Shown in pieces: positions 7,020-34,544 of a DNA stretch of 64,000 nucleotides. Both the position numbers and the translations under genes were made by a program. This DNA is from a virus. Where the stretch lies: IMG/VR virus record IMGVR_UViG_3300009514_000001, positions 62,001-126,000 of that record. One strand, written 5' to 3'. The notes below the pieces were generated by a model. The model ran no database searches, was not told the origin of the DNA, and saw only the letters and a program-made list of their open reading frames with translations. Each line of letters begins with the position of its first letter. Position 1 is the first letter of the stretch.

Positions 7020-7126
7020 GACCCACTCCAGGTCGACGTGACAGCCATCTCCTGGCCGTCAAACGTCGTTGTTGTCGGAGGGGCCGCCCCCAGCCTCCAT
7101 GCCTCATTGCAGTGTTCGCAGGTCAC
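7016..7126 (-). CDS. 36-aa CxxC micro-protein between the UvrD-like and metallopeptidase genes
   Basis: GTG at 7126 overlaps the TGA of the UvrD-like gene. The frame runs 36 codons and its stop overlaps the ATG of the next gene (ATGA, 7016-7019). A GGAGGA ribosome-binding site precedes the GTG. The product begins VTCEHCNEAWRLGAAPP, with one CxxC pair. The double overlap and ribosome-binding site support a real gene. It might instead only couple translation across the junction. Confidence 0.5.
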   Translation of the reverse strand: MTCEHCNEAWRLGAAPPTTTTFDGQEMAVTSTWSGS

Positions 7127-10100
7127 ATGTCCTCCGGGAGGAACTCGCCCCACTTGGCCCTCAGTTCCTCGGGACCATTTTGGCGTGAGGAGAAGCGACT
7201 CAGGATGTCCTCTGAGGGCCACTCGACGTCTGGTAGGTCTTGGGCCAGGAGCTGGTCCGCCTCGACGTCAGAAAGCCACGAGGACGTCCTCTCGGTGAAG
7301 TCTTCGCTGGGGATGCAACCCTCGGTGACGAACCGACTGGGCTTGCTCCTAATCGTAACCCCCTTCTTGGTGGTACCCAAAACGTCGGGCCGGACAATGG
7401 TCACCGAATCCTCGCCGCGGGTTACGGCCACGTAGGCCAGGCGGCGCTCGGACGCGATGTCTTCCTCAGACTCCGAATTCGGGTGTGGGAAGCCGCCGTG
7501 CCCAGGACCACCCCCCTCCCACATGGGGACGAACAGATGGGGAGCCTCCAGGCCCTTCCATCCGTGGACGGTGTCGAGCTGAACGGCATTGACCGCAGCG
7601 TCGAAATCGGGGTCATTCGGGTTGTCAGACTTCTGGAGCTTGGCGTTGGCTCGCTCCAGTTCCGACATGTAGGACGCGAACTCGTCGATACTGGGGTATG
7701 ACGAAGCGGCTGTCTTCAGGATGGTCAGAGGGCCTAGAGCATAGTCCTCAATGGCCTGCTCCAGGGTGACATCCTCAGTCCCCTTGAGTGCGCTGGCCGA
7801 GACATCCTCCATCGCCTTAGCGTCGTTCTTGACCCGCTCGACGAGGTTGTCGGTGATGCTCTTGTCGTCCTGACCACCCTTGCGGTCAAGGATGTAGTTG
7901 AGCAGCCCCTGGGTGTCGAGAGGAGTGTCTCGATCTTTGCTGCTGAGGAGAGTAATCTCCTGGAGATAGTCGGCGAAGGGCTTGACGTACTCCCGGTTGC
8001 GTCGCCGTGCACGGCCGACGTAGACCTCATCCCAACCGCCACCGAGGAGCCAGGCCAGGAGGTTCTTACCTCTCGCCTTGGAAGCCGCCTTCTTGAAGGT
8101 GTTGATTGAGATGCCCCAGTTCAAAGACCTGAGGGCATCCAGGACCAGGGGGTCGACCCTCTTGGCCGGCTCCGTGAGAGCCGAAGCCCCCATATTGGAG
8201 AGTTGCATCAGACTCAGGACGGACTTGGCCGGGCCCTTGAAGAAGTTGTACTTGGACCGGAACGGGATGCCGAGCTGAATCATGGCAACCCCGTACTCGT
8301 AGGCCTCGCGGTTGGTCCTCACGGCAATGCCGAAGTCCCGGGCCTTGAGAGAAGCATCGTCACCCTGAACCTGGTCGGCGATGGCCTGAGCAACGTAGGG
8401 ACCGAGGGCCTCCCGGGACGGAACCGTGACCTCTCGGATGCTGCCCTCACCCTTGCGTTCGACGTTCGCCTGGCAGACCATCTTGATCTGCTTCTCGTTG
8501 TGGGCAATCATCTGGTTCGCCGCGTCGACGATGGCCGAGCCGGACCGATAGTTCATCCGCAGAATCTTCGTCTCGAACCCTTCGCCGCCGGGAGTCAGGT
8601 CCGACTTCTCGATGAAGAGGTCGGGGTCAGCTCCGCGGAAGCTGTAAATAGAGTTGTGTGAGAGGATGCCGTTGGCGAAGAAGTTGGAGGCGTCTTCAAC
8701 ATCCAGGTCGACGAACTTGGTGTCCTCCGTCCGATTTACGGCGACCACCTTCTCTTGGACGATGGTGTACTGGGCACCTTCCGGAAGGTTGGGTCCGCTG
8801 ATGGCCCTCCCCTTGAACATGGGGACCAACACCGGAACTGTCATACCGGGCTTGACCGCGGACGCCGTCACCAACCTCATCGGTCCCTCAGGGGTGCTCA
8901 AGCGCCGGGACAGCATTGCCCCGGTCCGTTGCACGACGTCCTGGGCAAATGCGAGCGCGTCGCGATAGTTGGCGAACCACCGGCGAAGACGGTTGCGTCC
9001 TTGGGCGGTCCTCACAAACCGCACCCCCTCCAGGCAGTCGTCCAGGTCGTAGCCGGTCCACTCCATCGCTACCTGAGTGTTCGCTCCAGAGTGGGCAATC
9101 ATGTTGAGGGTACGACGCTTTCGTCCGTGTTTTGTGTAGCTCCGTGACATCCAGTTGGGCAGGTCGAAGCTCAGGTTGCGTGCTTCTAGTAGCCTCCCGC
9201 CGTTCCTTCCGAACTCCCGGAACAAGGTCTCGATACGGTCCTGGTTGAGACCCCTATGCACTCCGTTGAACACTGCGGTGGGGATTCCGTAACGGAGACT
9301 GTACTGAGTCTCTTTCAGGAGGGCCTTTTCGCGGTCCTCACAGACATCGATGACCCAGAGCTTCTCGGCCTTCTCCAGAAAAGCTCTCCCACCGAAATGG
9401 TTGAGGTACTGGGTGTCCTTACCTTTGTTGGTGACACCTACCCGGAACCCCATATCCCGGCGCCACATCAGATAGACGATGTGCTGGCCGCCCTCAGTGA
9501 TGATGTCTCCGACCCACAGCTTATGGTTGGGTGACATCAGGAGGTGCTGTCCACCCTCGGTGATGACATCCAACCCCCAGGTCCACGACGATTTCACAGC
9601 ATGACGTACCTTCTGGGGGACGACTTTGCCGTTGCGGTAGGAAAGGACCACGTCCCCCGGCTGAATAGCCGAGGCGTGCTTGCTGTTTCCTCCTGGTGTT
9701 GCAATGACCGAGTTGGCGGCCACGCACTGCTTGTCGTCTCCAATCAACGCCAGGGTGTCGGCTGTCATGTCTCCGTCTTCCCGTGGCTCCTGTGTTTCAG
9801 GGTCGTAATACCCAGCAACCAGGCCGACAAATAGGTGTTGGCTGTTGTGCGAGAGGATGTCTCCTCCGAAGAAATTGGACGCTCTCTCGACCTCAATATC
9901 GAAGAACTCACCTCCATCGACGAGGGCAACCTCCTCAATTATCTCCAGCTCCACAGAGGATTCGCGCAGAGGAGGCAACGGGTCCTCGGCCCTTCTAAGC
10001 TGCTCTTTCCGCATTAGAGTGTGAAATTTTTCTCTCGCCCCCTTACCCATCCCCGAGCAGTCAATGCCGAGACGAGAGGCCAGTCTTCGGTACTCGGACA

Positions 10101-13100
10101 AGGGGAGGAGTTCGGAATACCTAACATCTACCAACCCGCCAGTCTTCACTACCGGAACGGCCATGCCAGGGAACAGAGAGGAGGCTGTGGTAAGGGGGAG
10201 TTTTTCTCCTCCAATCCTTAGGTTGTCCAGAAGAAAGGAACCGTTTGTCTCAGCGACTTTCTCTGCCAGCTTACGAGCTTCGACATAGGAAGGAACCAAC
10301 TTGTTAAAGGTACGACGACCCCCTTTGACCACATAGGTTGCTAGCCCGCAGCTATCTACGTCGTCTCCAGACCATGACATCGAGACCCTAGAACCGACTT
10401 GATACCGGACAGACCGATGAGCATTGAGAGAAACGACCCTTCGAACCTCCTTGCCCCTAGTACTCGTCTGATTGACCCAATGAGGGTAGTCAAAGTAGAG
10501 ATCATGGGCCTCCAGTATCCGTCGTCCGTTATGTCCGAACTCCAAGAACACCCCGTTGATACGCTCCTGGTTACACCCCCGAACAGAGCCCCGAACAGAG
10601 CCCTCGTAGAGGTAGGTCGGAACCTGGTAGCGAAGGGAGTAGAGCTGTTCCTTGAGGAGAATGTCCTCCTCTTCACCCACTTCCAAGAGCCAAGCGCGAT
10701 CTGCCCTTTCTGAACCAGCCCTACTTGAGGAGCCTCCCGCACTTCGAGAAAAAGGACGAGTCGAGGCACCGATACGAAAACCGAGGTCCTCCCGGTACAT
10801 GAGGTAAAGACCCATTTGACCCTCGGGAAGGAGGCCTCGGAAAGGGGTCGCATAGATGCGGTGGTTGGGGGACATCACCAGCTCACGTCCAGAGGAGGTG
10901 GTGATACGATATCCCCTCGACCAGTTGCTCTTTTTCTTGGCCAACACCCTGTTGTAGACCACCTTTCCATTCTCGAACGAGAGGACTGAGCCGCCCACCT
11001 GGACATCACGGATGGCCTTCTCCCCTTCCGGAGTGTAGACGAGGGTCGACCCTAGGACGCAAGCATTCAAATCCTGAGCTTCGTCGACGACGACCATTTT
11101 GAACCGACGTTGGATGCGAGTCCGCACGTTGCGGTTCTCAATCATCATCTTCGAGGCGCCGATGAGCATGTCATCGAAGTCGCCCTGGCCCTCGTACTCG
11201 CTGGCGTTTCCCTTGAGCCACTCGTAGGCCCCGTAGACTGCCGCATAGATGGAGGCGTTAGACTGGCTGAGTGCCCCGTCTCTGGCCCCATCCTGAACAG
11301 CCTTGCCGTGTTCCTCGTGAGCCGCCTTGCCAGGGGCCAGAAGCTGGCCCTTGGTCTTTGAGACGTAGAGGGCGAAACGACCAATGGGGATGGCCGACTT
11401 GGAGTCGCCGGACCCTTCATGGAAGTCATCGTCCCAGGAGGCCCCCAAGTTGAACCACTGGTTCGCCGGCTGCTCTCCCCAGATGGGATTCTTGCTCTTG
11501 ACCCGACCTGACCACGGGGGCTCGTCGGTTTCATCACGGGCGGTCCTTAGGACCGAACTTGTAGTCGCCACAGAAGCGAGCTTGTAGTGGCCCCACCCCC
11601 GACGTTGGAGGGCTCGACGGGTACCTCCGCGCTCATTCTGGTCGGAGGTGACGGCATAGCCCAAGGCACGGTTGATGAAGTCCTTCTGCTTCTGAGTCAT
11701 CTTGGTGGGGTCGACAGGACTCGACTTCCACTTCTGAATGATGGATTGGGACTGGCGGTTCCACCTACTTGGACCGTACTTGCCTTCGTTCCATTTCAGG
11801 AAGTCCATGACGGCAAGAAACACTGAAGAAAGCTCGTCGATTCGCTCTTGGGACTCGTCGACATCGCCCTGCACCTTGGGGAAGAAGGTGGCTTCCGCGT
11901 CGGGCTGGGGCCAGGAGTCCTGCGAGGGCATCATGAGAACCTGGAGGATGGACAGACGAACCAGCTCGGCCTGGTCATATCCTGAGATGATCTTGCCACC
12001 TCTCCTCTTGCCGTAGGTCATACCCATCTTCAGAGCGACGCTGTGGGTCGTCCCGAAGCCTGACTTGCCCTGGCGGTCGGCGTCGATATCGCCGCCGTAG
12101 TTCTTGACGCGCTCAATAAGCTCGGCGCTCGACTTCTTCGTGAAGGAGCAGGCCAGAATCTGGTTGGCCGTCAGACCCACCTCGTTCATATGGTAGACGA
12201 TCTTGCCCGCCAGAACTCTCGTGTTGTGAGAGACAACACCGTTCGCAAGGAAGCTGTGCGTTGTCGGGACCGTGAAGTCATAGACCCGGTGGGTACCCTC
12301 CACACGACGCACCGACACCACCTCGTCAAGGCACATGTCGGAGAGCTTATGGAGAATAGCCGCCTCTGGTCCTTCTGCACCTTTCACGAGACGTTTGAGT
12401 TGCGCCCTTGACGGAGTTCGGTTGCCGAGCAAGTAGTGCTTGACCTGGACCCATCGGTCATCCATCAACAGCGACTGAGACTTCCCGTGCCATCTACCGG
12501 CTTGCTTCCACCACTCTCGGACACCTTTGAGAAGGTCTCCTACATGGGGTACTCCGATGTTGGGGTTGCAGTCCTTTGCGCACAGACTATTCAGGTCATC
12601 GGCCTTCTTGAAGTCGTATCGGAACCCAACGACCTCCCGGAACCCCCGGAGCTGGTCACCGCTGATGAGGATGCGCCAGTACGTGTGGTCGTACCCCTCA
12701 ACATGCTTGGGCTTGAGCATTCCTACAACGCCGAGGCCCAGGAGCATCTGGTGTACCTGACGGGCAAGCGTCTCTGAGGCTGACAACCACTCGAAAGAAC
12801 GGTCTCCAGTAGCCGTGCCGTCTGTATCAAACAGACCCTGCAAAAACCTGATCCTCTCCGCGTCGGAAGAGGACAGGAGCCACGCTGGGACTATCTTGTC
12901 TCGCGCGGAGGAGAAGAACATTCCCTGCTGACGGAGACGCTCCTGAAGTGAGGCACTCCAAAACGTGTGAGTAACGCTCTTCATGTCCTCTTTGGTTGTC
13001 TCTTTGGTTGTCTCTTTGGGTTGCTCGCCCCAGAATTTCTGGGCTAGGCGATAGAAGTGAGAAGGAAGGAAGTCGCCCCCACGAGACCAACAAACTCTGG

Positions 13101-14358
13101 TCTTCTTCGAATCACACCAACCATCACCCATGAACATGCCCAGGAGGTATGCCTCTTCCGGGTCGACGTTCTCCTTTCCCGTGTCAAGAGCATACCCAGG
13201 CTTGAGGACTACGAACTGCCCCTCTTTCATGACATCGAGACGCGTCCACACGGATTGCCCGTCCCAAGTCAGGAGAGGGTGCTCTGGAGTCCCTCGTAGG
13301 CGGATGCCTGAACGAGTTTGGACTTCGATGACCTTGCTCTCCCCCATGTCGAGCCAGGTGGCCTTCTCCAGAGTTGTGTCCAGGGTTTCCGGATTGACCG
13401 ACTTGACCCAGTCCTTTCCACTACACTGATCTAGGCGGAAGGTACCACCCTCAAGTGCCACAAGGGCATCTCCCGTCAGGCATTTGCCCGATCCCGCCCC
13501 GGCTGCAATGACAGCCCGGCCCCGAACCAGCATCGCATCCTCCTGCTCCGGAGAGAGGTTGATGTGTTTGCCAGTCTGTGTCCTGAATTCCTGGGCGGGG
13601 GGGATGGACTTCGAGGCCGCCACAGCCGCTACTGAGGTAGGAGCTTGGCTCGTCTCGACGACCTCTTCGATGCGAGCGTTCAGGGCCGCTTTTCGCTCCT
13701 TGAGAGCTACGGAGCGAGCTTCTGTGGGGTCTGTGGAGGAGATGGCCTGCTTGACGTCTGCGACCTTCTCAGCCAGTATCGCAACCGTCTCGGCGTCCGA
13801 CTGGGCCTCTTCGGTCTCGCTCAGTCCGGCGCCGAGGTTCTGTGCCGCGACCTTGACCCAGTTGCGTGGCTTGACGATGCCACTGACGGCCGGGATGGCT
13901 GCCAAGGCCCTCAGGACGGCCGCCGGGTCTTCCAGCTTCGAGGCATGGAGAACGCCCTTGACGGCGGCTCGGGAGCGACCCGTGAACACACTGCGTAGGA
14001 CGTCTGCCTTGTTGACCAAACGACTGAGAGCTGTGGTCAGGAAGTCTACCTGAGCGAAGACGACGACGTCGGCGCGACCTTTGGCCCGCTTCGCCTTGTT
14101 CATCTTGCCCTTGACGCCACCAATGCGTCCCTCCTCGACCAAGGGATACATGTGCTTCTTTAGGTTGGCCTCCATCTCCTTGCGATAGAGACGGGCGATC
14201 TCAAAGCCCCGCTTGAGATGGTCGTCGCGACCGCGGGCTTCCATACCTCGGGCGTAAGCCCCGAACCCAACCCAGAAGACACTGAGGTCCACCAGGCGGT
14301 CTGGTGTAGTCACATGGTCGCTGCCTTTCTTCTTCGCCGCTGCTTCGCGAGTAGTCAT
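7123..14358 (-). CDS. UvrD/PcrA-like superfamily 1 DNA helicase interrupted by three inteins (2411 aa precursor)
   Basis: Removing the three inteins leaves a helicase of about 1227 aa. Its first ~265 residues are a helical, charged region I do not recognise. The SF1 helicase motifs follow: Walker A AGAGSGK|T, motif II DEAQDLN, motif III GDDKQ|SIYSFRGAD, motif IV MNYRSG, motif V VHGWKGLE and motif VI ERRLAYVAVTR. Bars mark intein junctions. All three inteins start with Cys and end His-Asn, and the following residue is Thr, Ser and Ser. ATG 14358 has GAGG seven bases upstream. The likely role is 3'-5' unwinding in phage recombination or repair. Catalysis depends on splicing, since the P-loop and motif III are split. 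Confidence 0.93.
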   Translation of the reverse strand: MTTREAAAKKKGSDHVTTPDRLVDLSVFWVGFGAYARGMEARGRDDHLKRGFEIARLYRKEMEANLKKHMYPLVEEGRIGGVKGKMNKAKRAKGRADVVVFAQVDFLTTALSRLVNKADVLRSVFTGRSRAAVKGVLHASKLEDPAAVLRALAAIPAVSGIVKPRNWVKVAAQNLGAGLSETEEAQSDAETVAILAEKVADVKQAISSTDPTEARSVALKERKAALNARIEEVVETSQAPTSVAAVAASKSIPPAQEFRTQTGKHINLSPEQEDAMLVRGRAVIAAGAGSGKCLTGDALVALEGGTFRLDQCSGKDWVKSVNPETLDTTLEKATWLDMGESKVIEVQTRSGIRLRGTPEHPLLTWDGQSVWTRLDVMKEGQFVVLKPGYALDTGKENVDPEEAYLLGMFMGDGWCDSKKTRVCWSRGGDFLPSHFYRLAQKFWGEQPKETTKETTKEDMKSVTHTFWSASLQERLRQQGMFFSSARDKIVPAWLLSSSDAERIRFLQGLFDTDGTATGDRSFEWLSASETLARQVHQMLLGLGVVGMLKPKHVEGYDHTYWRILISGDQLRGFREVVGFRYDFKKADDLNSLCAKDCNPNIGVPHVGDLLKGVREWWKQAGRWHGKSQSLLMDDRWVQVKHYLLGNRTPSRAQLKRLVKGAEGPEAAILHKLSDMCLDEVVSVRRVEGTHRVYDFTVPTTHSFLANGVVSHNTRVLAGKIVYHMNEVGLTANQILACSFTKKSSAELIERVKNYGGDIDADRQGKSGFGTTHSVALKMGMTYGKRRGGKIISGYDQAELVRLSILQVLMMPSQDSWPQPDAEATFFPKVQGDVDESQERIDELSSVFLAVMDFLKWNEGKYGPSRWNRQSQSIIQKWKSSPVDPTKMTQKQKDFINRALGYAVTSDQNERGGTRRALQRRGWGHYKLASVATTSSVLRTARDETDEPPWSGRVKSKNPIWGEQPANQWFNLGASWDDDFHEGSGDSKSAIPIGRFALYVSKTKGQLLAPGKAAHEEHGKAVQDGARDGALSQSNASIYAAVYGAYEWLKGNASEYEGQGDFDDMLIGASKMMIENRNVRTRIQRRFKMVVVDEAQDLNACVLGSTLVYTPEGEKAIRDVQVGGSVLSFENGKVVYNRVLAKKKSNWSRGYRITTSSGRELVMSPNHRIYATPFRGLLPEGQMGLYLMYREDLGFRIGASTRPFSRSAGGSSSRAGSERADRAWLLEVGEEEDILLKEQLYSLRYQVPTYLYEGSVRGSVRGCNQERINGVFLEFGHNGRRILEAHDLYFDYPHWVNQTSTRGKEVRRVVSLNAHRSVRYQVGSRVSMSWSGDDVDSCGLATYVVKGGRRTFNKLVPSYVEARKLAEKVAETNGSFLLDNLRIGGEKLPLTTASSLFPGMAVPVVKTGGLVDVRYSELLPLSEYRRLASRLGIDCSGMGKGAREKFHTLMRKEQLRRAEDPLPPLRESSVELEIIEEVALVDGGEFFDIEVERASNFFGGDILSHNSQHLFVGLVAGYYDPETQEPREDGDMTADTLALIGDDKQCVAANSVIATPGGNSKHASAIQPGDVVLSYRNGKVVPQKVRHAVKSSWTWGLDVITEGGQHLLMSPNHKLWVGDIITEGGQHIVYLMWRRDMGFRVGVTNKGKDTQYLNHFGGRAFLEKAEKLWVIDVCEDREKALLKETQYSLRYGIPTAVFNGVHRGLNQDRIETLFREFGRNGGRLLEARNLSFDLPNWMSRSYTKHGRKRRTLNMIAHSGANTQVAMEWTGYDLDDCLEGVRFVRTAQGRNRLRRWFANYRDALAFAQDVVQRTGAMLSRRLSTPEGPMRLVTASAVKPGMTVPVLVPMFKGRAISGPNLPEGAQYTIVQEKVVAVNRTEDTKFVDLDVEDASNFFANGILSHNSIYSFRGADPDLFIEKSDLTPGGEGFETKILRMNYRSGSAIVDAANQMIAHNEKQIKMVCQANVERKGEGSIREVTVPSREALGPYVAQAIADQVQGDDASLKARDFGIAVRTNREAYEYGVAMIQLGIPFRSKYNFFKGPAKSVLSLMQLSNMGASALTEPAKRVDPLVLDALRSLNWGISINTFKKAASKARGKNLLAWLLGGGWDEVYVGRARRRNREYVKPFADYLQEITLLSSKDRDTPLDTQGLLNYILDRKGGQDDKSITDNLVERVKNDAKAMEDVSASALKGTEDVTLEQAIEDYALGPLTILKTAASSYPSIDEFASYMSELERANAKLQKSDNPNDPDFDAAVNAVQLDTVHGWKGLEAPHLFVPMWEGGGPGHGGFPHPNSESEEDIASERRLAYVAVTRGEDSVTIVRPDVLGTTKKGVTIRSKPSRFVTEGCIPSEDFTERTSSWLSDVEADQLLAQDLPDVEWPSEDILSRFSSRQNGPEELRAKWGEFLPEDM
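8653..9726 (-). mobile_element. Intein 3 of the UvrD-like helicase, sister of intein 2 (358 aa)
   Basis: Precursor residues 1545-1902, inserted inside motif III (GDDKQ^SIYSFRGAD). It begins CVAANSVIATPGG and ends ASNFFANGILSHN with Ser at +1. Block B is MSPNHKLWV. Its centre has IVYLMWRRDMGFRVG, then LLKETQYSLRYGIPT, NQDRIETLFREFG and FDLPNW, collinear with intein 2. A diverged internal duplication of ITEGGQH flanks block B. It is about 50 residues shorter than intein 2. Confidence 0.92.
9844..11061 (-). mobile_element. Intein 2 of the UvrD-like helicase, non-LAGLIDADG central domain (406 aa)
   Basis: Precursor residues 1100-1505, inserted just after motif II (DEAQDLNA^SQHLF). It begins CVLGSTLVYTPEG, has MSPNHRIYA as block B, and ends ASNFFGGDILSHN with Ser at +1. 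No LAGLIDADG helix is seen. Instead the centre has GLYLMYREDLGFRIG, then LLKEQLYSLRYQVPT and FLEFGHNG. All of these recur in intein 3. The YLM(x7)FRIG arrangement recalls the GIY-YIG nuclease core, but this is tentative. A 12-bp tandem repeat encodes GSVR twice (10577-10603). Confidence 0.92.
12223..13482 (-). mobile_element. Intein 1 of the UvrD-like helicase, LAGLIDADG type (420 aa)
   Basis: Precursor residues 293-712, inserted after Lys of the P-loop (GAGSGK^T). It begins CLTGDALVALEGG and ends HSFLANGVVSHN, with Thr at +1. GTPEHPLLT is splicing block B (TxxH). The central endonuclease has two LAGLIDADG-like helices, LLGMFMGDG and LQGLFDTDG. Acidic residues are kept in both, so the nuclease may be active. 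The endonuclease tail (HTYWR, then VVGF, then VPHV) resembles that of the SNF2 intein. A 12-bp in-frame tandem repeat encodes ETTK twice (12988-13019). Confidence 0.93.
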
Positions 14359-21678: not shown

Positions 21679-21927
21679 CGTCTTCTCTCGTCTTGTCTAT
21701 CTTCTCATCGAGAACGCGCAGGTGTCTCTCTTGCCTGGCAAGGGACTTCTCCTGGGCCCTGAGGGCACCATTGTGCACCTTACCGAGGGTGGCGCGGATT
21801 CGTTCCACGCGCCTCTCGACGAGACGAGCCCCTCCCTGCACTCAGCGAGGTCACCTGGACACTCGGACGAAGGTCCAATACCCAGAGCGGCCTCCAAGAC
21901 AGCTAGGCGTCTTTGGGTGTCATCCAT
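21650..21927 (-). CDS. Small coiled-coil protein, possibly one frameshifted gene or two overlapping frames
   Basis: Two frames share this interval. One starts at ATG 21927 within the polymerase end and reads gene-like for ~30 residues (MDDTQRRLAVLEAALGIG). It then degenerates into unlikely sequence (to 21697). The second, from GTG 21841 to 21650, is a convincing charged helix (LVERRVERIRATLGK, then LARQERHLRVLDEKIDK). A -1 shift near 21800-21840 would join them into one ~90-residue coiled-coil protein. No canonical slippery heptamer is seen, so a mutation, a sequencing error or two separate genes are all possible. Confidence 0.4.
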
Positions 21928-24900
21928 CCATCAACTCGACGAAACGACCGCGGTCGACCAGGACCGGCTCGGGGAACCATCCGTCAAGGGGTACCCCATC
22001 GGGGGCGAACAGCTCCAACCGGAACCCTTCGGGGTCGTGGGACCCTACGATGGCCTGGGCGATTCTCTCCCCCTCCTCCTCGTCTACCTTCGAGAGTCGG
22101 TACGGGATGACTCGGCTTTCCAGAGAATCCTCCGCGGGTCCCTTTGGGACTCCCTGGGAACCCGAATGGAACATGTCCCAGGCCCTCGCCAGAGCCGCTT
22201 TCTCCTCCTCTGTCAGAGGGTTCTCGCGGTCGTGTCTGCCGCTCTCGAAGTAAGGTTCGAGGGTCGGTGGCCACCTGATGTCCTCGAAGGACCCAAACTT
22301 CCCTTTGACGTCCTCAGAGTTTCCGTAGAACCCACGGACACGACGTAGGAGGGCCCAAATCTGGTCGTCGTCGAGCCCTGGCTGCTGAAGCTCTCTGCGC
22401 AGGCCGACAGCATACCGGAAGGCCGTCATGTTGTGTTTGACCGTCCAGTTCGGACCAAGCTCGACGTCCACAGTAAGGGGGACCGCCCAATTTCTGCCTA
22501 GGATGATCGGGTTGGATACCATCAACCCGGAGAACAAGTCGCAGGCTTCCTCAAGGATGTCATTGCGGATCTCAAACACCAGCTCATCGTGCATGGTGAT
22601 GATCATCCGAACCTTGTCCTGCCACTTTCTCCTGCGGACCTCCTTGTAAATGAGACCCATCGCCAGTTTGGTGATGTCAGCGCTCGACCCCTGAATCGGG
22701 CTGTTCACTGCGTTGCGTTCCGCCTTGGCCCGGATGAACCTCTCTTCGTGCTTGATATCGGGGAGCGGGAACTTGCGCTGGAACGCCGTGATGACGTAGC
22801 CGTGGTCCTTGGCGAACTTACGGGTTCTCTTCCACCACTCTTGGAGGGAGGTATATGCCTTCTTGAACTGGTTGGCGATGCGGTAGGCCTCGTTCTCACC
22901 ACACCCGGTGTTGCGGTGGATGGCCTTCGGCCCACCCCCATACGAGAGGGCGAAGTTGGCGCTGTTGTGGACCACCAGGCCATTGGTCCAGTAGACGTTG
23001 GGTTCCGCAACATGAAGGTCGACGACGTTCGACGTGCCAGCAGGCAGGATGACCCTGACCTTATTTGCCCCTGTCGCGGACTTGTATTCCTTGGCCTCGC
23101 GGAGACGACTCCGCTTCATCGGGTGGCGAAGATAGGCGTAGAGCCCCCAGGCCTGTGAGGCCCGAATGTGTGTCCGCACATACCACCTCTGATAGGTCTT
23201 GTTGAACGTCGGTTCCACACACGGAGTCATACCAAGGGCGTGACACACTGCGACCAACTGACCCGAGAACACGAAGTCCTTGGAGGTCCATGACATGCGG
23301 CCGTCCTCTCCGACCGTCCCATCCGTGTCGACCAGACCGCCGAGGAAAGACCACAAGGCTGTGGGTCCGCGACCCAGAACCCAGTCCGGAATCCGAAGGC
23401 ATCTCTTACCCTCGACTCCTTCGACGAGCCCAAGAGCAGACAGGAAGCGCATCGTGTGACGACTGCCCAAGTAGACCAGCTGGTCCTTTCGAGTCGGCAG
23501 GAATCCCACCTTCTCGCAGGACTCGACGATAATGTCCTGCCAGGTCTTGTAGGGCAGTCCGAGCTGGTCGACCTTGTCGACGTGGCCATGAGTGATTGAC
23601 ACGGAAGTCGACCCCTGCTTCGCCCCGTCGCCAGAGAACATGCCGGCGAAATAGGCCATGTCGGGGGACAATGACACCCCCATCTCAGGCAGGTTCTTGT
23701 AGGGTCGATACCCGACTCTACGCCAGGGTTTCGTCTCCACATAGGGAGTTCCAACGGGTTCTGCGAGGACATCGCCTGTGTCGAGGCCCTGTTCGATAGA
23801 CTTGAACGTCCCATCGGCCAGGAGAAAACGATGCTGAGCGGTACAGGTCAAGAGGCCTCGACGGGAGACCACATGGTAGACCTCTTGCTCCCCTCCCTGG
23901 TAGGTCTCCAAAAGACGCAGCTCATCCTCTTCGCCGTCCTGGCCGGTAAACACCGTCCCAGGATACTTGAGGAACGTGTCGGGCTCCTCCGCGAACTTCA
24001 AGGAGCCGATGCGCCGGAGAGCCCCGCTCATACCGAGGATGCTGTCAGGGTGGACGCACTTGCCCTGTTTCCTCTTTTCTTTCCAGTCCTTACGCCTCTG
24101 AGCGGACTCCCCGAAAATCTGAATGGCGGTCAGAGTGTGGATGTCCCCGATCTTGTCCTCGCCGCATTGGGGGCAGAAGAGGGGAGGGGCTGGGGGTGTG
24201 GTCTTGCCGTCTCCCCGGTCGAACTCCAGGTCACATGCACTGCACCGGAAAAACGCGTCAATCCACTTCTTCTCGCCGGAGAGATTGGCGGCCAAACGCA
24301 ACTCGACGCCACCGAAATCGATAGCGACCATGGTCCACCCAGTGGGAGCCACGATACACTCACGAATCCTCAGCAGTGCCGGAGGCCTATTGGTGTCGTA
24401 GGTCGCAGGCATTGACTGGAGGTTGAACCGGGTCCCCCCTGTCTTCGCCGGCTCCCTCTCTCCCTTCGAGCTGAAACGTCCTGTCGCTGTAGCGAACTGG
24501 CGGAACCCGATCTTGAGAGTGTTGTCGTGGCGGTAGGTGTCCTCGAAGATGGCGTAGAGCTTACCGAGGGCGTTCTGGTTGCCGCGCATCCACTTGATGC
24601 GATTGACGAATGGGTAGTCGTGGATTGAGTTCTCGATGACCTCTTCCAGGACTTCCTTGCCGGTAGCCACCTGGCCACTGGGGGTCTTCTTCAGACCTGG
24701 AACAGCCAGGTCCCACATGAGCGTCCCGAGCTGGGCCGGCGCAAGGACGTCGTAGCTGTCCTTCAGTTCGACGCCCTTGCGCGGGGGTGGTGCTTCCCGA
24801 GCAATCAGCTCGCCGAACTTCGGTGCGTCCAGGACGATGCGGAGACCTCCCTTTCCTGAGTGGTTGGCGACGGACACTTGGCCCGTCTGACACATCTTCA

Positions 24901-26017
24901 GGACGCCGAGGTCCTGTCGCTGGAACCGCTTTTGGAACTTCTTGGCCTCCCCCCGAAACCGGTCGACCATAGCCTGGAAGGTCTCTCCAGTGTCGTCCGT
25001 GACTGCCATCTCTGGGTTGGTCACCTCGATGTACAGGGACATGAGGTAGAACGACAGAGGCGTGATGTCGCGCTCCAGGATGTCGGAGGCCCCTCGATAC
25101 ACCTCCTTAACGGCCTTGTAGAGGTCCCCCTGGCCGAGCTGAATCAACTCAGCCACCTTGGCCAGGTCGATGTGGAGGCGATTGCGCTCCATCCAGCGGA
25201 CACTAGGGAGGCAGAGCTTCTCGACCTTGTGGATGAACCCCTGGCTATGGGGTCGATTTGTGCTCTCGTTCTTGCTTGTCAGAGCAAGGGCCTTCTTCTT
25301 GAGCTTCTCATAGAGCTGGAGAGTGCAGATGGCGTCGGCCGCAGCGTACTCCAAGATGCCTGGGTCGGTGGGGTCCAACTCAGCGAAGTTCAGGTCCTTC
25401 GTCTTGGGCGGGAACAGCTCCTTCAGCTCGATTTGCTTCTTCCCCAGGAGGGCGTCTGACATCACCTTGAGGGTCTTCGCTCGACGGGTGCTGTCATCGA
25501 GGTAGGCCAGGATGAGGACGTCTTCCCAGGAGTCTGGGTTGTCCCACGTGCCGTACGGGAGACCCCCGTTGTAGGTCATCAACTCGCCCTCGAACTTGCA
25601 GTTGAAGACGAGGGGGACTGACCTGTCCTTGCCCTTGCGCTTCATGCCCTCCATCAGTCGACGGACCTCGGCATCGAACTCGTGGAAAGGGACGTTGTGC
25701 TCTGACGGCTCGTCGTTGGGGCAGTGACGGACTGGGATGTAGTAGCCGGTCTTGGTGTTCGGGGACAGACAAAGACCGACGATGTCGCAGTTGGTCTTGT
25801 ACTGCGTCCCTTCTGGAGTCTCCCGAGGGAACACGCGGGTGTCGAGGCCTGTGGTCTCCAGGTCGAGGGCGTAGTAGGGCTTCGACAGACACTCGTCGAT
25901 GACCTCGCGCAGCCTGGCGCCGGTCGTAACCAGCTCCATGCGGACCTTCTTCATCCACGGATGGAGGGCGACCTCAATCTTGGGCTTGTCCAGGAACCCG
26001 GCATCAAACAACGACAT
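21920..26017 (-). CDS. Family A DNA polymerase (PolA-like) with 3'-5' exonuclease domain and one intein
   Basis: About 1365 aa; about 1000 aa without the intein. The N-terminal exonuclease has ExoI ALDLETTGLD and ExoIII YAAADAICTLQLYE. ExoII reads VFNCKFEGEL, with Glu where Asp is usual. Polymerase motif A is VAIDFGGVELR (about residue 565), motif B is K|SANFALSYGGG split by the intein, and motif C is MHDELVFEI (about 1142). A Cys4 zinc-ribbon-like insert (CSACDLEFDR, then FCPQCGEDKIGD) sits between motifs A and B. No 5'-3' exonuclease domain is present. I prefer ATG 26017 (AAGGGG five bases upstream) over GTG 26023. It is the phage replicative polymerase candidate. Confidence 0.93.
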   Translation of the reverse strand: MSLFDAGFLDKPKIEVALHPWMKKVRMELVTTGARLREVIDECLSKPYYALDLETTGLDTRVFPRETPEGTQYKTNCDIVGLCLSPNTKTGYYIPVRHCPNDEPSEHNVPFHEFDAEVRRLMEGMKRKGKDRSVPLVFNCKFEGELMTYNGGLPYGTWDNPDSWEDVLILAYLDDSTRRAKTLKVMSDALLGKKQIELKELFPPKTKDLNFAELDPTDPGILEYAAADAICTLQLYEKLKKKALALTSKNESTNRPHSQGFIHKVEKLCLPSVRWMERNRLHIDLAKVAELIQLGQGDLYKAVKEVYRGASDILERDITPLSFYLMSLYIEVTNPEMAVTDDTGETFQAMVDRFRGEAKKFQKRFQRQDLGVLKMCQTGQVSVANHSGKGGLRIVLDAPKFGELIAREAPPPRKGVELKDSYDVLAPAQLGTLMWDLAVPGLKKTPSGQVATGKEVLEEVIENSIHDYPFVNRIKWMRGNQNALGKLYAIFEDTYRHDNTLKIGFRQFATATGRFSSKGEREPAKTGGTRFNLQSMPATYDTNRPPALLRIRECIVAPTGWTMVAIDFGGVELRLAANLSGEKKWIDAFFRCSACDLEFDRGDGKTTPPAPPLFCPQCGEDKIGDIHTLTAIQIFGESAQRRKDWKEKRKQGKCVHPDSILGMSGALRRIGSLKFAEEPDTFLKYPGTVFTGQDGEEDELRLLETYQGGEQEVYHVVSRRGLLTCTAQHRFLLADGTFKSIEQGLDTGDVLAEPVGTPYVETKPWRRVGYRPYKNLPEMGVSLSPDMAYFAGMFSGDGAKQGSTSVSITHGHVDKVDQLGLPYKTWQDIIVESCEKVGFLPTRKDQLVYLGSRHTMRFLSALGLVEGVEGKRCLRIPDWVLGRGPTALWSFLGGLVDTDGTVGEDGRMSWTSKDFVFSGQLVAVCHALGMTPCVEPTFNKTYQRWYVRTHIRASQAWGLYAYLRHPMKRSRLREAKEYKSATGANKVRVILPAGTSNVVDLHVAEPNVYWTNGLVVHNSANFALSYGGGPKAIHRNTGCGENEAYRIANQFKKAYTSLQEWWKRTRKFAKDHGYVITAFQRKFPLPDIKHEERFIRAKAERNAVNSPIQGSSADITKLAMGLIYKEVRRRKWQDKVRMIITMHDELVFEIRNDILEEACDLFSGLMVSNPIILGRNWAVPLTVDVELGPNWTVKHNMTAFRYAVGLRRELQQPGLDDDQIWALLRRVRGFYGNSEDVKGKFGSFEDIRWPPTLEPYFESGRHDRENPLTEEEKAALARAWDMFHSGSQGVPKGPAEDSLESRVIPYRLSKVDEEEGERIAQAIVGSHDPEGFRLELFAPDGVPLDGWFPEPVLVDRGRFVELMDG
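22964..24058 (-). mobile_element. Intein in DNA polymerase motif B, LAGLIDADG type (365 aa)
   Basis: Residues 654-1018 of the precursor, inserted at K^SANF of the O-helix that binds incoming dNTP. It begins CVHPDSILGMSGA and ends VYWTNGLVVHN with Ser at +1. LLTCTAQHRFLLADG is block B. The LAGLIDADG helices are YFAGMFSGDG and LGGLVDTDG, with both acidic residues kept. Unlike most other inteins here, I see no tandem microduplication in it. Confidence 0.93.
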
Positions 26018-26026
26018 ACACACCCC

Positions 26027-27054: not shown

Positions 27055-27679
27055 GGAATAGCTCGTTGTAGCGTTTCAGGAGACGCCCCTTGGCCTCCTT
27101 CCAGGGAAGCGGGACAATGTAGTCCGAGAACCACCCTGTGTGAATGTTGGTGGCGAACAAGCGCCCGTTGACGGGCCGAGGAAGAGGTTGTCCCCCCACT
27201 TCCTCGGGGAGGTCCCACGACTTCACCGGGTCCCTATCCCCGAAGAAGCTGTGAATCTCCAGAACCAAAGCCGCCAGGTCTGCCCACCGTACACTGGGAG
27301 GCATCTCCGGGACATCCGGGTCGAAGGGAATGCCCAGGGCGCTCCATATGGTCTGGGTGGTCTCCCACTCCACGTCGTCGAACCAAGTGATTCCGTCCTG
27401 TCTCATCCTGTGCTTGATGGGCTCTCCGAGGTCCCCCAGGTAGGCCTCGGCGAAGTCATGGGTGAGTCCTTTCCTGGCGTCCTCGGGGGCGCATAGCTGA
27501 CTCACCATGATACTGTGCTGGGCCACGGAGAAAGGCTCCGGGGTATGGCCGTTGTAGCGAGGCTGGGCGGACAGCGAGTGCACGATATCGAGGATGTGAA
27601 CGTCCTCTCGGGCGAGACGGTGGGGGTAGAGGAATCGGCGCTGGTAAGCGGTCTTGAGGCGTGGTTCTTTCTTTCTCAT
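27047..27679 (-). CDS. HD-domain phosphohydrolase (YfbR-like) (210 aa)
   Basis: ATG 27679 shares one base with the helicase stop (TGATG). The frame back to 27805 lies inside that gene. Metal-binding motifs of HD phosphohydrolases are visible: FSVAQHSIMVSQL, then GLTHDFAEAYLGDLGEPIK with the HD pair. YfbR-type members hydrolyse deoxynucleoside 5'-monophosphates. In phages such enzymes adjust nucleotide pools during replication, which fits its place among replication genes. The substrate is inferred. Confidence 0.78.
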   Translation of the reverse strand: MRKKEPRLKTAYQRRFLYPHRLAREDVHILDIVHSLSAQPRYNGHTPEPFSVAQHSIMVSQLCAPEDARKGLTHDFAEAYLGDLGEPIKHRMRQDGITWFDDVEWETTQTIWSALGIPFDPDVPEMPPSVRWADLAALVLEIHSFFGDRDPVKSWDLPEEVGGQPLPRPVNGRLFATNIHTGWFSDYIVPLPWKEAKGRLLKRYNELFHE

Positions 27680-30552
27680 CAGTCGTCGCTGCTCATGAAA
27701 TCGGTGGATAGTTCCTCGGCCTTGCGCACGGTCTCTTCGGCCTTCTCTGCGTTGGCCAGGGCCTCGAAGTCTACCGGGTCCGTGCAGGTCATGACGCGCC
27801 GACAACGCCAGTCAACGGCTGTGTAGAGAGGTTCGAACTTCTCGTCGTCTCTGGTCTTGATGCACTGGACTAGGAGACGATTGGTCTTCCGAAGGACATC
27901 ATTGATGAACCCGGCCGTGATGACGTCGCTGGAGCGTTCGATCTCGTTGGAGTAACTGAGGTCGTAGGCCTCATAGATGCCCACGCGGCCTCCGTTCTTG
28001 CCCATGTTGGCGCGCTTGAACCCCTCGCGGCTGATCTGGAACAGGGCCACGACGGCGATGCCTTCCCCTCGGTTGAAGTTGTTGGACAGAATCTTGAGAT
28101 CACGGACGACCTCATTGGCCCTGGCTGTCGTACTCGGGTTGTACTGCTTGGGGTCAACCAGGAGGACGTGGTCGACCACAATCATGTTGAACGGGCTCTG
28201 GCGATAGAGCAGCTCTGACTTGGACCGAATGTCGCTGACCCGGAAGCTGTCCTCATCCGGGTTGTACCCCACGAAGTGCATCTTGCCGTAGCCGTTGGCC
28301 GGGTCTTTCAGGTCTGGGAGGACGAACTGGGTGAGGAACTCCTCCTCGTTCGGCGGCAGACACCCATCCCGGAGGAAACGGTAACGAAGCCCCAGGTCAA
28401 CCTCTCCCTGTCTCTGGATGGCCAGACGGAGGCGAGCCTCCCGGAACTTCGGGTGCATCGAGTGCATCGCGATAATGATGCGACGACATTGGTCGTAGGA
28501 CATCTCCAGGGTGAAGTAGCAGGAGCTGTACTTGAACCAGATGGCCTGGTTGTAGACCCAGTTGAAGGCGACGCTGCTGTTGTGGACGATGAACCCATCC
28601 GCGACGAAGTTCTCGGGTCCCGGGACGGACAAATCGTAGGTCATCTCCTCCCCGTCGTAGGTGACCTCATCCACCTGGGTCCACCAGACGTCACCGTCGG
28701 CCTGCCGGAGCAGACCATCGTCCTGGGCCGCCTCTGCGAGACGACGAACCGTGTCCCGGTGAACTGACCGGCGCTCTTTCGCCCAACGCGCATATTGCCA
28801 ACCCCCCTTGCGAGTCTGGGTGCGGACGTCATCACCAAGGTGGGCCAGAAGGGCCGTGGGCATCTTGTCGTCTTCGGTGCGGTCAGGGAGGTGTCCGAGA
28901 GCTTCCTCCACAGCATCCTCCACAGCATCCTCCACAGCATCCTCCTTGCCGAAGATAGTAGACCGCGTAAGGAACCGGCGCTTCGACTCCGTGGTCCGAA
29001 CAGAGACGTTCCAAAAGACTCTCCTCTCCCCCTTGTACATAATCTGTACGGGGGAGAGAGTGGTCACTACCCCGACTCGTTGGAGGAGGAGTTGGATATC
29101 CGAGGCCAACTGACGGCTCTTACTCGTGTAGTAGATGTTGACCTGGTGGCGATCTTGCCGACCCTCACGTCGCCGGAACACGGACCCCACGGACCCGTCC
29201 GTCGACCACAAGGCCGAGAGAAACAGCCACGTCTGGTCGTCGGTCATCGACCACAACTCACCCGGGACGAACTTGTCCTCGGAACCCTTATCCCAGAGAC
29301 CAAGATCCTCAGCCAGGACACGAAGGGGGGAAGTCCATGGATGGTACTTACTTCGGCCAGTGGAAGTACTCAAATCAACCCTGTCCGAACGCTCTCGGAA
29401 ATAAGCATATCGAGCCTTCCCTCCCTCCGGGGCACGCCTATACCCCATCCTGCGAAGACGGGCGATGAAGTCGGAGCGGATGCCTGGATTCGATACGGAT
29501 AGTTGCAGACACTCCCTCAGGCAGCCGTCCCCCAGGAGATATCCGAGACACACCACTTGGTCGTCACTCCACTCAGAGTCCTCGGGGGAAGTGGTCATGT
29601 GCTTGGCCAAACCCACCCAAGAGCCCTTCTGAAGACCATCCGCACGCACCCAACCTCCGGGGGTGAGGAACGGATGGTTCTCCGACACACGGATGGTGTG
29701 GCCTGTCTTGGTTCGCACCTTGAGGATGGGCTTGACTCCGTTCTTCGCCACCCTACTCGTGCGGGTCTCCGCCAGCTTGACAGAGCCCTCGTCGAGGGCA
29801 TGGAGCCGCGCGCAACGACGGCTCTTGTAAAGATCACCTATCGTTTTCAATTCTCCTGTGTAAGTGTCGAATATCTTTACGGAATTCGCGACGCATTTTA
29901 AGTGACCTGTAAAGCCAGCATGGGTCCAGAGCTGCTTCTTGCGGGCACCGCCGAGGGCGACGTCAATCTGCTTGATGCCCATGTACTGGCCGATACCGAA
30001 GTTGGGGTCATCGCGCCGTCGTTTGTAATCCTCCCAGTAGTCTTCGGTGTCCTCAGTGACCTCGCCGTCTGTGCGCATCCCACCTGGTGGGCGACCGATG
30101 AGGGAGGCCTCCCGCTGGAAGTAGGAAATGGCGTCACGAGGGCCCTTGAAGATGCGGTCCTTCCCGTCCTTCCCTGGGAGCTTGAGGCCCTGCATATTGA
30201 TGTGGTTGGCGTTTTGGAGACGCTCCTGGAGCTTGGCCTGGAGTCTCTCCTCTGAGCGTTCGTAGAGGCGGGCTCGGAAGTCGCCCCGGAACAGGGGTCG
30301 GAGCTGTTTGAGAATCTCAAGCTGGTCTACGATGTCGCTCTGCTTCTCCCGACGGAAGTGAGAGGTCAGGGTCGTGACGTCGGGGGCATGGTTGTGGGCA
30401 CGGAAGAACTCTCTAACGTACTCCCAGATGGTCTGGTGCTCTGGGATGAGGAACTCAAGGCCCTCGGCCTGGGTGTCCAGGATGTTGGCCAGGAGGAGAT
30501 CAGGGTCATCGGTATGGTCGACCCTGAACATGGACCGCAACAAAATCTTCAT
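27679..30552 (-). CDS. DnaB-like replicative helicase with one intein (957 aa precursor)
   Basis: About 518 aa after intein removal. The N-terminal ~200 residues are a helical DnaB-N-type region (IWEYVREFFRAHNHAP). The RecA-like ATPase has a phage-style P-loop AGFTGHLK|SSVAFNW, a Walker-B-like MIVVDHVLLVDP (about residue 794 of the precursor) and a late FQISREGFKRA arginine segment. GGAG precedes ATG 30552. It should be the hexameric fork helicase, working with the polymerase, the primase-type protein and the candidate loader encoded nearby. Splicing is needed to restore the P-loop. Confidence 0.88.
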   Translation of the reverse strand: MKILLRSMFRVDHTDDPDLLLANILDTQAEGLEFLIPEHQTIWEYVREFFRAHNHAPDVTTLTSHFRREKQSDIVDQLEILKQLRPLFRGDFRARLYERSEERLQAKLQERLQNANHINMQGLKLPGKDGKDRIFKGPRDAISYFQREASLIGRPPGGMRTDGEVTEDTEDYWEDYKRRRDDPNFGIGQYMGIKQIDVALGGARKKQLWTHAGFTGHLKCVANSVKIFDTYTGELKTIGDLYKSRRCARLHALDEGSVKLAETRTSRVAKNGVKPILKVRTKTGHTIRVSENHPFLTPGGWVRADGLQKGSWVGLAKHMTTSPEDSEWSDDQVVCLGYLLGDGCLRECLQLSVSNPGIRSDFIARLRRMGYRRAPEGGKARYAYFRERSDRVDLSTSTGRSKYHPWTSPLRVLAEDLGLWDKGSEDKFVPGELWSMTDDQTWLFLSALWSTDGSVGSVFRRREGRQDRHQVNIYYTSKSRQLASDIQLLLQRVGVVTTLSPVQIMYKGERRVFWNVSVRTTESKRRFLTRSTIFGKEDAVEDAVEDAVEEALGHLPDRTEDDKMPTALLAHLGDDVRTQTRKGGWQYARWAKERRSVHRDTVRRLAEAAQDDGLLRQADGDVWWTQVDEVTYDGEEMTYDLSVPGPENFVADGFIVHNSSVAFNWVYNQAIWFKYSSCYFTLEMSYDQCRRIIIAMHSMHPKFREARLRLAIQRQGEVDLGLRYRFLRDGCLPPNEEEFLTQFVLPDLKDPANGYGKMHFVGYNPDEDSFRVSDIRSKSELLYRQSPFNMIVVDHVLLVDPKQYNPSTTARANEVVRDLKILSNNFNRGEGIAVVALFQISREGFKRANMGKNGGRVGIYEAYDLSYSNEIERSSDVITAGFINDVLRKTNRLLVQCIKTRDDEKFEPLYTAVDWRCRRVMTCTDPVDFEALANAEKAEETVRKAEELSTDFMSSDD
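28579..29895 (-). mobile_element. Intein in the DnaB-like helicase P-loop, LAGLIDADG type (439 aa)
   Basis: Precursor residues 220-658, inserted at GHLK^SS of the Walker A motif. It begins CVANSVKIFDTYTGEL and ends NFVADGFIVHN with Ser at +1. VSENHPFLTPGG is block B. The endonuclease helices are VCLGYLLGDG and LSALWSTDG. Three 12-bp tandem units (28905-28940) encode repeated EDAV inside it. Confidence 0.93.
28905..28940 (-). repeat. Three 12-bp tandem repeats inside the DnaB intein
   Basis: The 12-mer CCTCCACAGCAT occurs three times in perfect tandem and a fourth copy begins at 28941. In frame it gives an EDAV tetrapeptide repeat between the endonuclease region and the C-terminal splicing block. 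Comparable 12-bp tandem repeats occur in UvrD inteins 1 and 2. Confidence 0.9.
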
Positions 30553-30567
30553 GAATGAGGCGCTCCG

Positions 30568-31506
30568 TTAGCTTCCTTGCTTCTTGCTCTTCTTCTTGGC
30601 CTTCTTTTTCTTCCACTCCTTCTCTGGGTCCCGATGAACCCGAAGTGAAGACTTCCGACTCTCTTTCACGAGGCCAGTCTTCGAGGGCAACTCCTGGTCG
30701 AACCCGACGGTCCCTGAGGTGACCGGAGACGGCATGTCGGGGTAGTCGGTCTCGCGGTCGTCACCCAGATCGATTCCGACGTACTCCCACATCTCGATGT
30801 GGTCCATCAGGTGGTCGGAGTAGCACAGATGGCCGGGAGCTAGGGGGGTGTGGGGCTGGTCGAAGAGCCAGGTGGGCTTGCCCTCGTGGAACCGGCTGCT
30901 CAGAGCCTCCCCCAACACCCCGGGCATCTCCTTGTTGTTCGCCGCCTTCATCCCCAGATGGATGATGAGCAGCTCTGGAGGAATCACCAGGTCCTGGAGG
31001 GTGTAGAAGGACATGGAGACCGGAGCGGCGTCCGAATCAAAAATCTCGCCACCCCCCAGAGGAACGGTCGCCAACCAGGCGGTTATCAGGTCAGTGTCGC
31101 TAGCGACCTTGAAAAACCACCGGCTCCCTTTGCGAATGGCGACATGACGGAGGTGCTCTCGGAACACCCTCGTCGGCGCCGTCACCCACACGTTCTTGTC
31201 GGTCAGGTCCCGCAAAGGCGAGGACTCGATGTTGGCGGCCCGACTCAGACCACGCCACCCGGCCTCGACGTTGTCGAGGATGTCCCGTGCGGCCATGCAC
31301 TCACAGCGCATCCGTCCTGGGGGAATGGTGGAGTCGTCTTGAACGAACCCGTGACCGAAACATTGGGGGCAGTTGGGGTCCCCGGGACCCGTGTCGTCGA
31401 CCTTCTCCCGATAGTCAGGGTGGTTGAGTCCTGACGTCTCTGCATCGAAAGCCACTCGACGTCTTTTGTAGTTGGAGCCGTAGCCGTCGTGGTCGTCGTC
31501 CTTCAC
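30568..31506 (-). CDS. Candidate helicase-loader-like protein lacking a P-loop (312 aa)
   Basis: Near the N-terminus, CPQCFGHGFVQ followed by RMRCECMAARDIL gives the paired Cys pattern of DnaI/DnaC-type loader N-domains. The following ~150 residues have the rhythm of an AAA+ domain (NVWVTAPTRVFREHL, then PPELLIIHLGMKAANNKE and KPTWLFDQP). I see no GxxxxGK(S/T) Walker A, so ATP binding is doubtful. The C-terminus is a Lys-rich tail (KKKKAKKKSKK). It lies directly upstream of the DnaB-like helicase and overlaps the SNF2 gene by ATGA, so helicase loading is a reasonable guess. Confidence 0.5.
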   Translation of the reverse strand: MKDDDHDGYGSNYKRRRVAFDAETSGLNHPDYREKVDDTGPGDPNCPQCFGHGFVQDDSTIPPGRMRCECMAARDILDNVEAGWRGLSRAANIESSPLRDLTDKNVWVTAPTRVFREHLRHVAIRKGSRWFFKVASDTDLITAWLATVPLGGGEIFDSDAAPVSMSFYTLQDLVIPPELLIIHLGMKAANNKEMPGVLGEALSSRFHEGKPTWLFDQPHTPLAPGHLCYSDHLMDHIEMWEYVGIDLGDDRETDYPDMPSPVTSGTVGFDQELPSKTGLVKESRKSSLRVHRDPEKEWKKKKAKKKSKKQGS

Positions 31507-34500: not shown

Positions 34501-34544
34501 TTGTACCTCTTCTCGGTCGTCGGGTTCATCTTGTACTTGCTCAT
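31503..34544 (-). CDS. SNF2/superfamily 2 helicase-like ATPase with one intein (1013 aa precursor)
   Basis: About 551 aa after intein removal. SF2/SNF2 motifs in order: KIRDYQVIGILHM (Q/motif I region), Walker A GDDTGLGK|T, DEAT (about residue 637), LTATLIKNN (motif III) and a C-lobe with KVIVFTRFAEMVKL. ITTAGSDAINLQ and QLLGRMVRIGSQHD (motif VI) follow. A DNA translocase role in phage replication, recombination or defence evasion fits. The protein is basic at the N-terminus (MSKYKMNPTTEKRYKRL). It is linked to the loader-like gene by ATGA. Confidence 0.9.
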   Translation of the reverse strand: MSKYKMNPTTEKRYKRLSAIRKKKGLAIKRKPPNLRETFVGFDGVERPLKIRDYQVIGILHMASMGRFILGDDTGLGKCTRGDTLIRTGSNGLVPIEDINPGITKPDTFAPVDHWSVQVGGKELQVSQFYHGGVKPTRKVQTHHGFEIEGSLVHPVRVRRGGGEVWVKLAEVREGDYLCIDRSPYKFGRVPVSLPSEVARNGEKTYPTQFKMVPELARFLGYLIAEGWFNHKDGEGWFNHKDGRFFTISQCSLSNPETSADIEYLIDTLFKYPVRKHGNDYPIASTYLIRWLEAIGVPKGVAKDKCIPWSVLRADRECVRQFVRALVDAESHVTKNGIEFSSASEKLAKQLQIVLLGFGVVSRRSPKAVKGRDHTYWRLTILGEDARVFMEHVGLISQRKRDAILPLTQHKENTNHDVVPHLKPEVEALREEIYARCGRQGYKGGGTSKRFGNAFYTTLGHVRAGRRNVSYSFLDTMLGVALEVGVPQDSPSLLELSRVRQREWFYDPVRNIERGEAEVYDITVDDPSHCYVGNGVVNHNTLSTIASLCVLWRTNPDQKALILTTKSAVPQWAGEFQKFTTGVHVTAMTGGNPKKREKQYAEFLAEKGPAVIVMNYALARADFTKIHGELDFRVVVYDEATAFKNPRARIHQVCKALAQKEGVAWVWGLTATLIKNNLIEGYGIYKVVMPPLFGTKTSFMKDYCITRLQKLPKSGRQIPVIIGYRDEDIERFRRVIDPFFLGRPKHEVATELPNVTFRMLKFSMHGDQTRLYSEALSGLLWVQDKETGEMEQKEVDHLTACTRLQQIVNHPELLGRDGKSKKFSLLKDLLSEGDLADEKVIVFTRFAEMVKLIMPALNNTDERRKNRYAVSITGHDSNPKRRAEAQRLFQDPNSDTKVIVITTAGSDAINLQAAKGLICYDTPWSAGDYLQLLGRMVRIGSQHDRVYAIHLCGIGSIDMRVNQVLRKKMDLVEAVLGRRIKGESKPVTISADGDLKAIYEGVLEDARKSRRKK
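32925..34310 (-). mobile_element. Intein in the SNF2-like P-loop, LAGLIDADG type (462 aa)
   Basis: Precursor residues 79-540, inserted at GLGK^T. It begins CTRGDTLIRTGSNG and ends YVGNGVVNHN with Thr at +1. GSLVHPVRVRR is block B. The endonuclease helices LGYLIAEGW and VRALVDAESHV are diverged, but an acidic residue is kept in each. SASEKLAKQLQIVLLGFGVV and DHTYWRL closely match UvrD intein 1. A perfect 27-bp tandem duplication follows the first helix. Confidence 0.92.
33816..33869 (-). repeat. Perfect 27-bp tandem duplication in the SNF2 intein
   Basis: Two adjacent identical 27-bp copies (33816-33842 and 33843-33869) encode EGWFNHKDG twice, just after the first LAGLIDADG-like helix. Absence of any mismatch suggests a recent event. 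It adds nine residues next to the nuclease active-site helix. Confidence 0.95.

Follow-up and report, generated by a model that had tools for sequence, protein, structure and literature searches.

A helicase gene with three inteins

The window, by which we mean the whole stretch of 64,000 nucleotides of viral DNA that was analysed, encodes a UvrD/Rep-family helicase in an open frame at 7123-14358, on the minus strand like all the other features of the window described below. The precursor has 2,411 aa, of which about 1,227 are extein, and matches the Pfam profile PF00580 (UvrD-helicase, E=1.4e-21). Three inteins interrupt the gene. I1 (12223-13482, 420 aa) lies in the P-loop, at GSGK/T (slashes mark insertion points), and is of the ordinary LAGLIDADG type, with Pfam matches to PF14528 (LAGLIDADG_3, 6.3e-16) and PF14890 (1.7e-16). 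I2 (9844-11061, 406 aa) is inserted in helicase motif II (DEAQDLNA/SQHLF) and I3 (8653-9726, 358 aa) in motif III (GDDKQ/SIYSFRGA). The extein segment that leads from one motif to the other (9727-9843) counts 39 codons, one more than the 38 given in the initial annotation, and the span 8653-11061 corresponds exactly to I2, these 39 codons, and I3.

Pfam and NCBIfam recognise the splicing domains of inteins in both I2 and I3; the Intein_splicing score is 35.8 bits for I3, at the cut-off, and 28.5 bits for I2, below it. I3 has Cys1, SPNH in block B, and a C-terminal HN/S. C1, H68, and N358 are invariant in the alignment of 23 family members, and both I2 and I3 are followed by Ser at +1. By these residues and by their predicted fold, I2 and I3 are Hint-type inteins, and they are predicted to splice. 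Their homology extends over the entire sequences (BLASTP 206 bits, E=2e-67, 33% identity; 39% identity in the MAFFT alignment). All the motifs that they had been reported to share are present in this alignment, in identical order, with a corrected spacing for one of them: YLM-x5-GFR[IV]G, that is, seven residues between M and R.

The central domain of I2 and I3 resembles GIY-YIG nucleases

Pfam and NCBIfam scans agree with the earlier observation that the central domain of I2 and I3 lacks the LAGLIDADG and HNH motifs, whereas I1 has LAGLIDADG. Scans of I2 and I3 with Pfam, NCBIfam, and PHROG, and of 28 isolated cores with Pfam and PHROG, revealed no nuclease family, and the GIY-YIG models of Pfam gave a direct match to none of the family members. 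The AlphaFold2 model of I3 (pLDDT 93.7, pTM 0.90, with 23 aligned family members as input) has a core of two strands (residues 82-89 and 93-99), a helix (113-117), a strand (122-129), and a helix (132-146), as assigned by DSSP. This beta-beta-alpha-beta-alpha order is that of GIY-YIG domains, and it is identical in the model of a compact relative (pLDDT 88.4). We delimit the domain to residues 82-150 in I3 (9277-9483) and 83-149 in I2 (10615-10815), where it reads YLMYREDLGFRIG, followed at some distance by R and then by LLKEQLYSLRY. In I3, the domain is followed by an extension (residues 151-283; 8878-9276) that combines a long helix (162-182) with a beta-rich subdomain, the latter absent from compact relatives. 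This extension probably binds DNA. Foldseek searches with two whole-intein models relate them to solved inteins: the splicing domain fills the lists, and the matches listed are only intein-type or intein-bearing (Hint) proteins.

The residues of the core are very conserved. Y85, M87, R95, G97, R114, and E139 are invariant in 43 sequences from phages and Patescibacteria, while E118 is present in 42 and A135 in 38 of them. Y85 is the tyrosine of the GIY motif in strand 1, R114 the arginine of helix 1, and E139 the glutamate of the metal-binding type in the later helix (A-x3-E). The tyrosine of the YIG motif in strand 2 is R95 in all 43 sequences, with Gly97 retained, and a conserved terminal Asn was not found. 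Since one of the defining features is thus systematically replaced, we call the domain GIY-YIG-like and not simply GIY-YIG. The classical spacing of the two motifs is GIY-x10-11-YIG, and that of I2 and I3 is shorter.

Profile comparisons give a link to bona fide members of the superfamily. A profile of the intein core alone retrieved a stand-alone protein (L054; E=3.6e-5 per genome, or about 0.01 over the whole search of 287 genomes) that is assigned to GIY-YIG by Pfam at 3e-18. HHalign matched the core profile to one merged from 30 GIY-YIG domains with a probability of 85.6% and a score of 33.8, against 17.5 for the best of 100 column shuffles and 11.0 for the reversed control. The same core scored at shuffle level against profiles restricted to UvrC or to YhbQ and showed no direct profile similarity to T5orf172/MUG113 (probability 0.6 for MUG113). 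Searched against PDB profiles, the core gave nothing beyond weak matches to a cilia protein, which we took as chance.

The domain might be an unrelated nuclease, or an extension of the splicing domain, whose resemblance to GIY-YIG stops at a short motif. This would account for the missing Pfam match, the short spacing, and the subfamily scores, but it leaves aside the topology of the models, the match of the intein profile to a real GIY-YIG protein, a merged-profile score nearly twice that of the best shuffle, and the members from Patescibacteria, which read YVYLMHRKGLGWRIGKTDDLISRLRME, close to the canonical GIY-YIG consensus. We regard it as very improbable. The suggestion that the domain is related to GIY-YIG, made initially from the motif spacing, is largely supported by the predicted topology, the invariant Tyr/Gly/Arg/Glu pattern, and the profile link. 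Its nuclease activity is inferred.

A probably unusual position of the domain in the Hint fold

Once the GIY-YIG-like domain is removed, the remaining sequence aligns to solved mini-inteins. In the canonical layout, as in I1, the endonuclease comes after the A-x-x-L-x-x-G strand, whereas here this strand follows the GIY-YIG-like domain. By this alignment and the predicted model, the domain appears to be placed upstream of the usual endonuclease site. Its position would thus differ from the one conserved site that all homing endonuclease domains of inteins are stated to occupy (PMC6801210). At the canonical endonuclease position, I2 has about 52 additional residues (310-361; 9979-10134), and insertions of about 50 aa at this place are common to I2 and its relatives of the motif-II site. 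The one in I2 might represent a further DNA-binding unit or what is left of a different nuclease.

Relatives and insertion sites

A tblastn search with I3 found homologs in 42 phage records, including Justusliebigvirus and other Stephanstirmvirinae, Bacillus SPO1-like phages, Vibrio phage RYC, and an uncultured phage of 485 kb. Using the SPO1-type intein as a query added streptococcal prophages, in which the interrupted gene encodes a DNA methylase, and the IMG/VR search gave 19 loci. The intein-core profile matched 12 of the 287 genomes of the phylum of one Patescibacteria member; one of these matches is the stand-alone GIY-YIG protein, so that the intein core is present in 11 of the 287, the centre genome included. 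The family is thus distributed among huge phages, relatives of SPO1 and phi92, streptococcal prophages, and Patescibacteria. No relative was found in the plasmid records searched. An intein in a terminase gene (L002) was set aside because it shares the splicing domain alone. The family includes two UvrD inteins that are already annotated, in Bacillus phage SPO1 (gp34.33) and in coliphage JohannJBalmer; their records mark the intein and name no nuclease domain among the features listed.

These inteins occupy at least six sites in UvrD (DE/CQDL, DLN/SQH, GDxxQ/SIY, QQLY/CFRG, IAHN/SKQ, and GTCH/STKG) in addition to the DNA methylase. Most relatives share the motif-III site of I3, and the survey of both sites in related phages, proposed at the outset, also found same-site relatives for I2. 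Several copies may coexist in one gene: three in L019, and two in each of L015 and L023. The inteins of L018, L025, L029, and L031 end in TSN, SSN, or GN instead of HN and are thus without the usual penultimate His. The copy of phage phiBsKO1-1 (L014) matches the SPO1-type intein in two pieces covering only residues 83-275 (76% identity), and the helicase gene is matched over a slightly smaller length. This intein may be decaying.

I2 and I3 belong to separate site lineages of one family

The initial annotation regarded I2 and I3 as sister copies, one of which had invaded a second, nearby site. We tested this with a tree of 42 inteins. I2 clusters with the other inteins of the motif-II site (support 100/100), and I3 joins the motif-III inteins of L015 and L018 (98/94). 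A tree constrained to pair I2 with I3 is worse by 135 log-likelihood units, and the AU test rejects this arrangement under the model used (p=0.0009). I2 is 48% identical to its ortholog at the identical site in LR745208 (L027) and only 33% to I3. A recent duplication in this phage lineage, with a jump of one copy over 39 codons, would explain why two neighbouring sites of the gene carry homologous inteins; given the clustering by site, the cost of the sister arrangement, and these identities, we consider it extremely improbable. The sister relationship is thus rejected, since each intein joins those occupying its own site elsewhere.

The more general idea of an invasion of further sites holds at the level of the family, where one lineage colonised several sites of the gene. 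It does not hold for a passage between the sites of I2 and I3 within this phage, as shown by the same-site orthology in other phages and by the AU test. Motif-III inteins are scattered over the tree, and the clades of motif II and of IAHN/SKQ lie inside one part of it. Only an older jump, from an ancestor of the motif-III type to motif II, fits this topology. In this unrooted tree, the pattern suggests an older occupation of motif III.

Probable traces of homing

Helicase genes of Justusliebigvirus that are about 96-98% identical occur with and without the intein, and the same is found among SPO1-like phages; the identity of the flanks across both groups is about 95-98%. In all the intein-bearing alleles of Justusliebigvirus that we compared with empty ones, the mismatches are concentrated between -27 and +51 bp around the junction (78 bp), with an identity of 60-73% within 30 bp and few differences elsewhere. 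Within this tract, intein-bearing alleles resemble one another, and the two empty alleles agree at most positions. This is as expected if the flanks had been co-converted during homing. No such divergent tract was found at the junction in the SPO1/Goe9 pair.

Selection on empty alleles for target sites that are no longer cut could also produce a tract in the coliphages. The differences near the junction are mostly synonymous (VVVGDEYQ/SIYQFRGS versus VVVGDEFQ/CIYQFRGS), which would suit such selection, but the agreement of the empty alleles with each other, and of the intein-bearing ones among themselves, is what a single imported block would give. We therefore judge selection to be rather unlikely and prefer co-conversion from a donor. 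Either reading implies a nuclease acting at the site. In L004 and L028, the intein-free motif-III sites read GDDKQ/AI. With Ala at +1, splicing would not be possible, and such alleles may therefore resist the intein.

It could further be argued that the GIY-YIG-like fold has lost its role in homing, or never had one, and stabilises the intein or regulates splicing, in which case the patterns of presence and absence would result from loss or from ordinary phage recombination. The Arg that replaces the YIG tyrosine throughout and the SPO1/Goe9 flanks devoid of a co-conversion tract are compatible with this. However, drift after loss of function would have erased the catalytic-type Tyr, Arg, and Glu, which are invariant across phages and Patescibacteria, and the sharp tract of the coliphages points to the repair of a break at this very place. 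This alternative seems to us unlikely.

We consider it quite probable that both I2 and I3 are mobile members of a single intein family, with a GIY-YIG-like homing domain nested in the Hint domain, and that they represent separate, old site lineages. Each would splice out of the helicase precursor by means of its ordinary Hint domain, while the nested endonuclease would cut, at the corresponding motif, helicase genes that lack the intein. When the break is repaired with the occupied gene as template, the intein would be inserted together with some flanking DNA. Each intein would have been maintained in its own site-specific lineage, that of motif II having presumably split off from an ancestor resembling those of motif III.

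Relation to known systems

To our knowledge, the mobility of inteins is known almost entirely from LAGLIDADG nucleases and a few HNH ones, which are always placed at the same point of the splicing domain. I2 and I3 resemble the LAGLIDADG inteins (PI-SceI, PI-PfuI, and I1) in associating a Hint domain with a nested, here putative, homing endonuclease in conserved motifs of replication and repair genes; they differ in their GIY-YIG-like nuclease domain and in its probable location before, rather than after, the A-x-x-L-x-x-G strand. They share the order of the core fold, the Tyr/Gly/Arg/Glu pattern, and the mobility in phages with I-TevI, found in group I introns, and with the free-standing Seg proteins, but their domain is in frame within an intein and has Arg for the YIG tyrosine. 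A basic residue at this position is also found in T5orf172/MUG113, Pfam families related to GIY-YIG (KIG, versus RIG or RVG in the present inteins), and the MUG113 sequences that we collected have Lys there; we know of no intein nucleases in that group.

In 2006, members of GIY-YIG had not been found in inteins (PMC1564403). Closest in this respect is the AceL NrdHF split intein of a phage-like contig, with a putative GIY-YIG homing endonuclease gene between the intein halves (PMC7891396); the nuclease is there a separate gene, whereas it is a domain of the intein in I2 and I3. A helicase gene with several intein sites at short distance from each other is also found in the haloarchaeal MCM inteins (PMC10643990). 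The type of nuclease is different there, and in UvrD it is a single intein family that moved among several sites. A phrase search of the literature on GIY-YIG inteins, which covered few subscription papers, returned nothing relevant, and an earlier report may exist. We think it likely that the family represents a class of mobile inteins as yet unnamed, defined by a divergent GIY-YIG homing nuclease with Arg for the YIG tyrosine, a novel position in the Hint fold, and repeated jumps within the same gene in phages and Patescibacteria.

If so, mobility was acquired by inteins on more than one occasion, and their endonucleases are not strictly confined to one insertion site. Homing is directly testable in laboratory phages, namely SPO1 and relatives of phi92, which have natural intein-free sister strains. 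With as many as three members of the family in different motifs, a single gene provides a rare opportunity to study how homing enzymes change target.

Other inteins in the window and in the phage record

Three more replication genes of the window have signals of inteins, and it therefore carries about six of them when those of the helicase gene are included. The gene for a family-A DNA polymerase (21920-26023, minus strand) has a weak splicing match, and those for a DnaB-like helicase (27679-30552) and an SNF2-type helicase (31503-34544), also on the minus strand, each contain a LAGLIDADG intein. Further Intein_splicing matches are found in the same 222-kb phage record at 188866-189765, 203028-203369, and 204756-205139 (positions in record C1), the last two within frames of only 226 and 298 aa.
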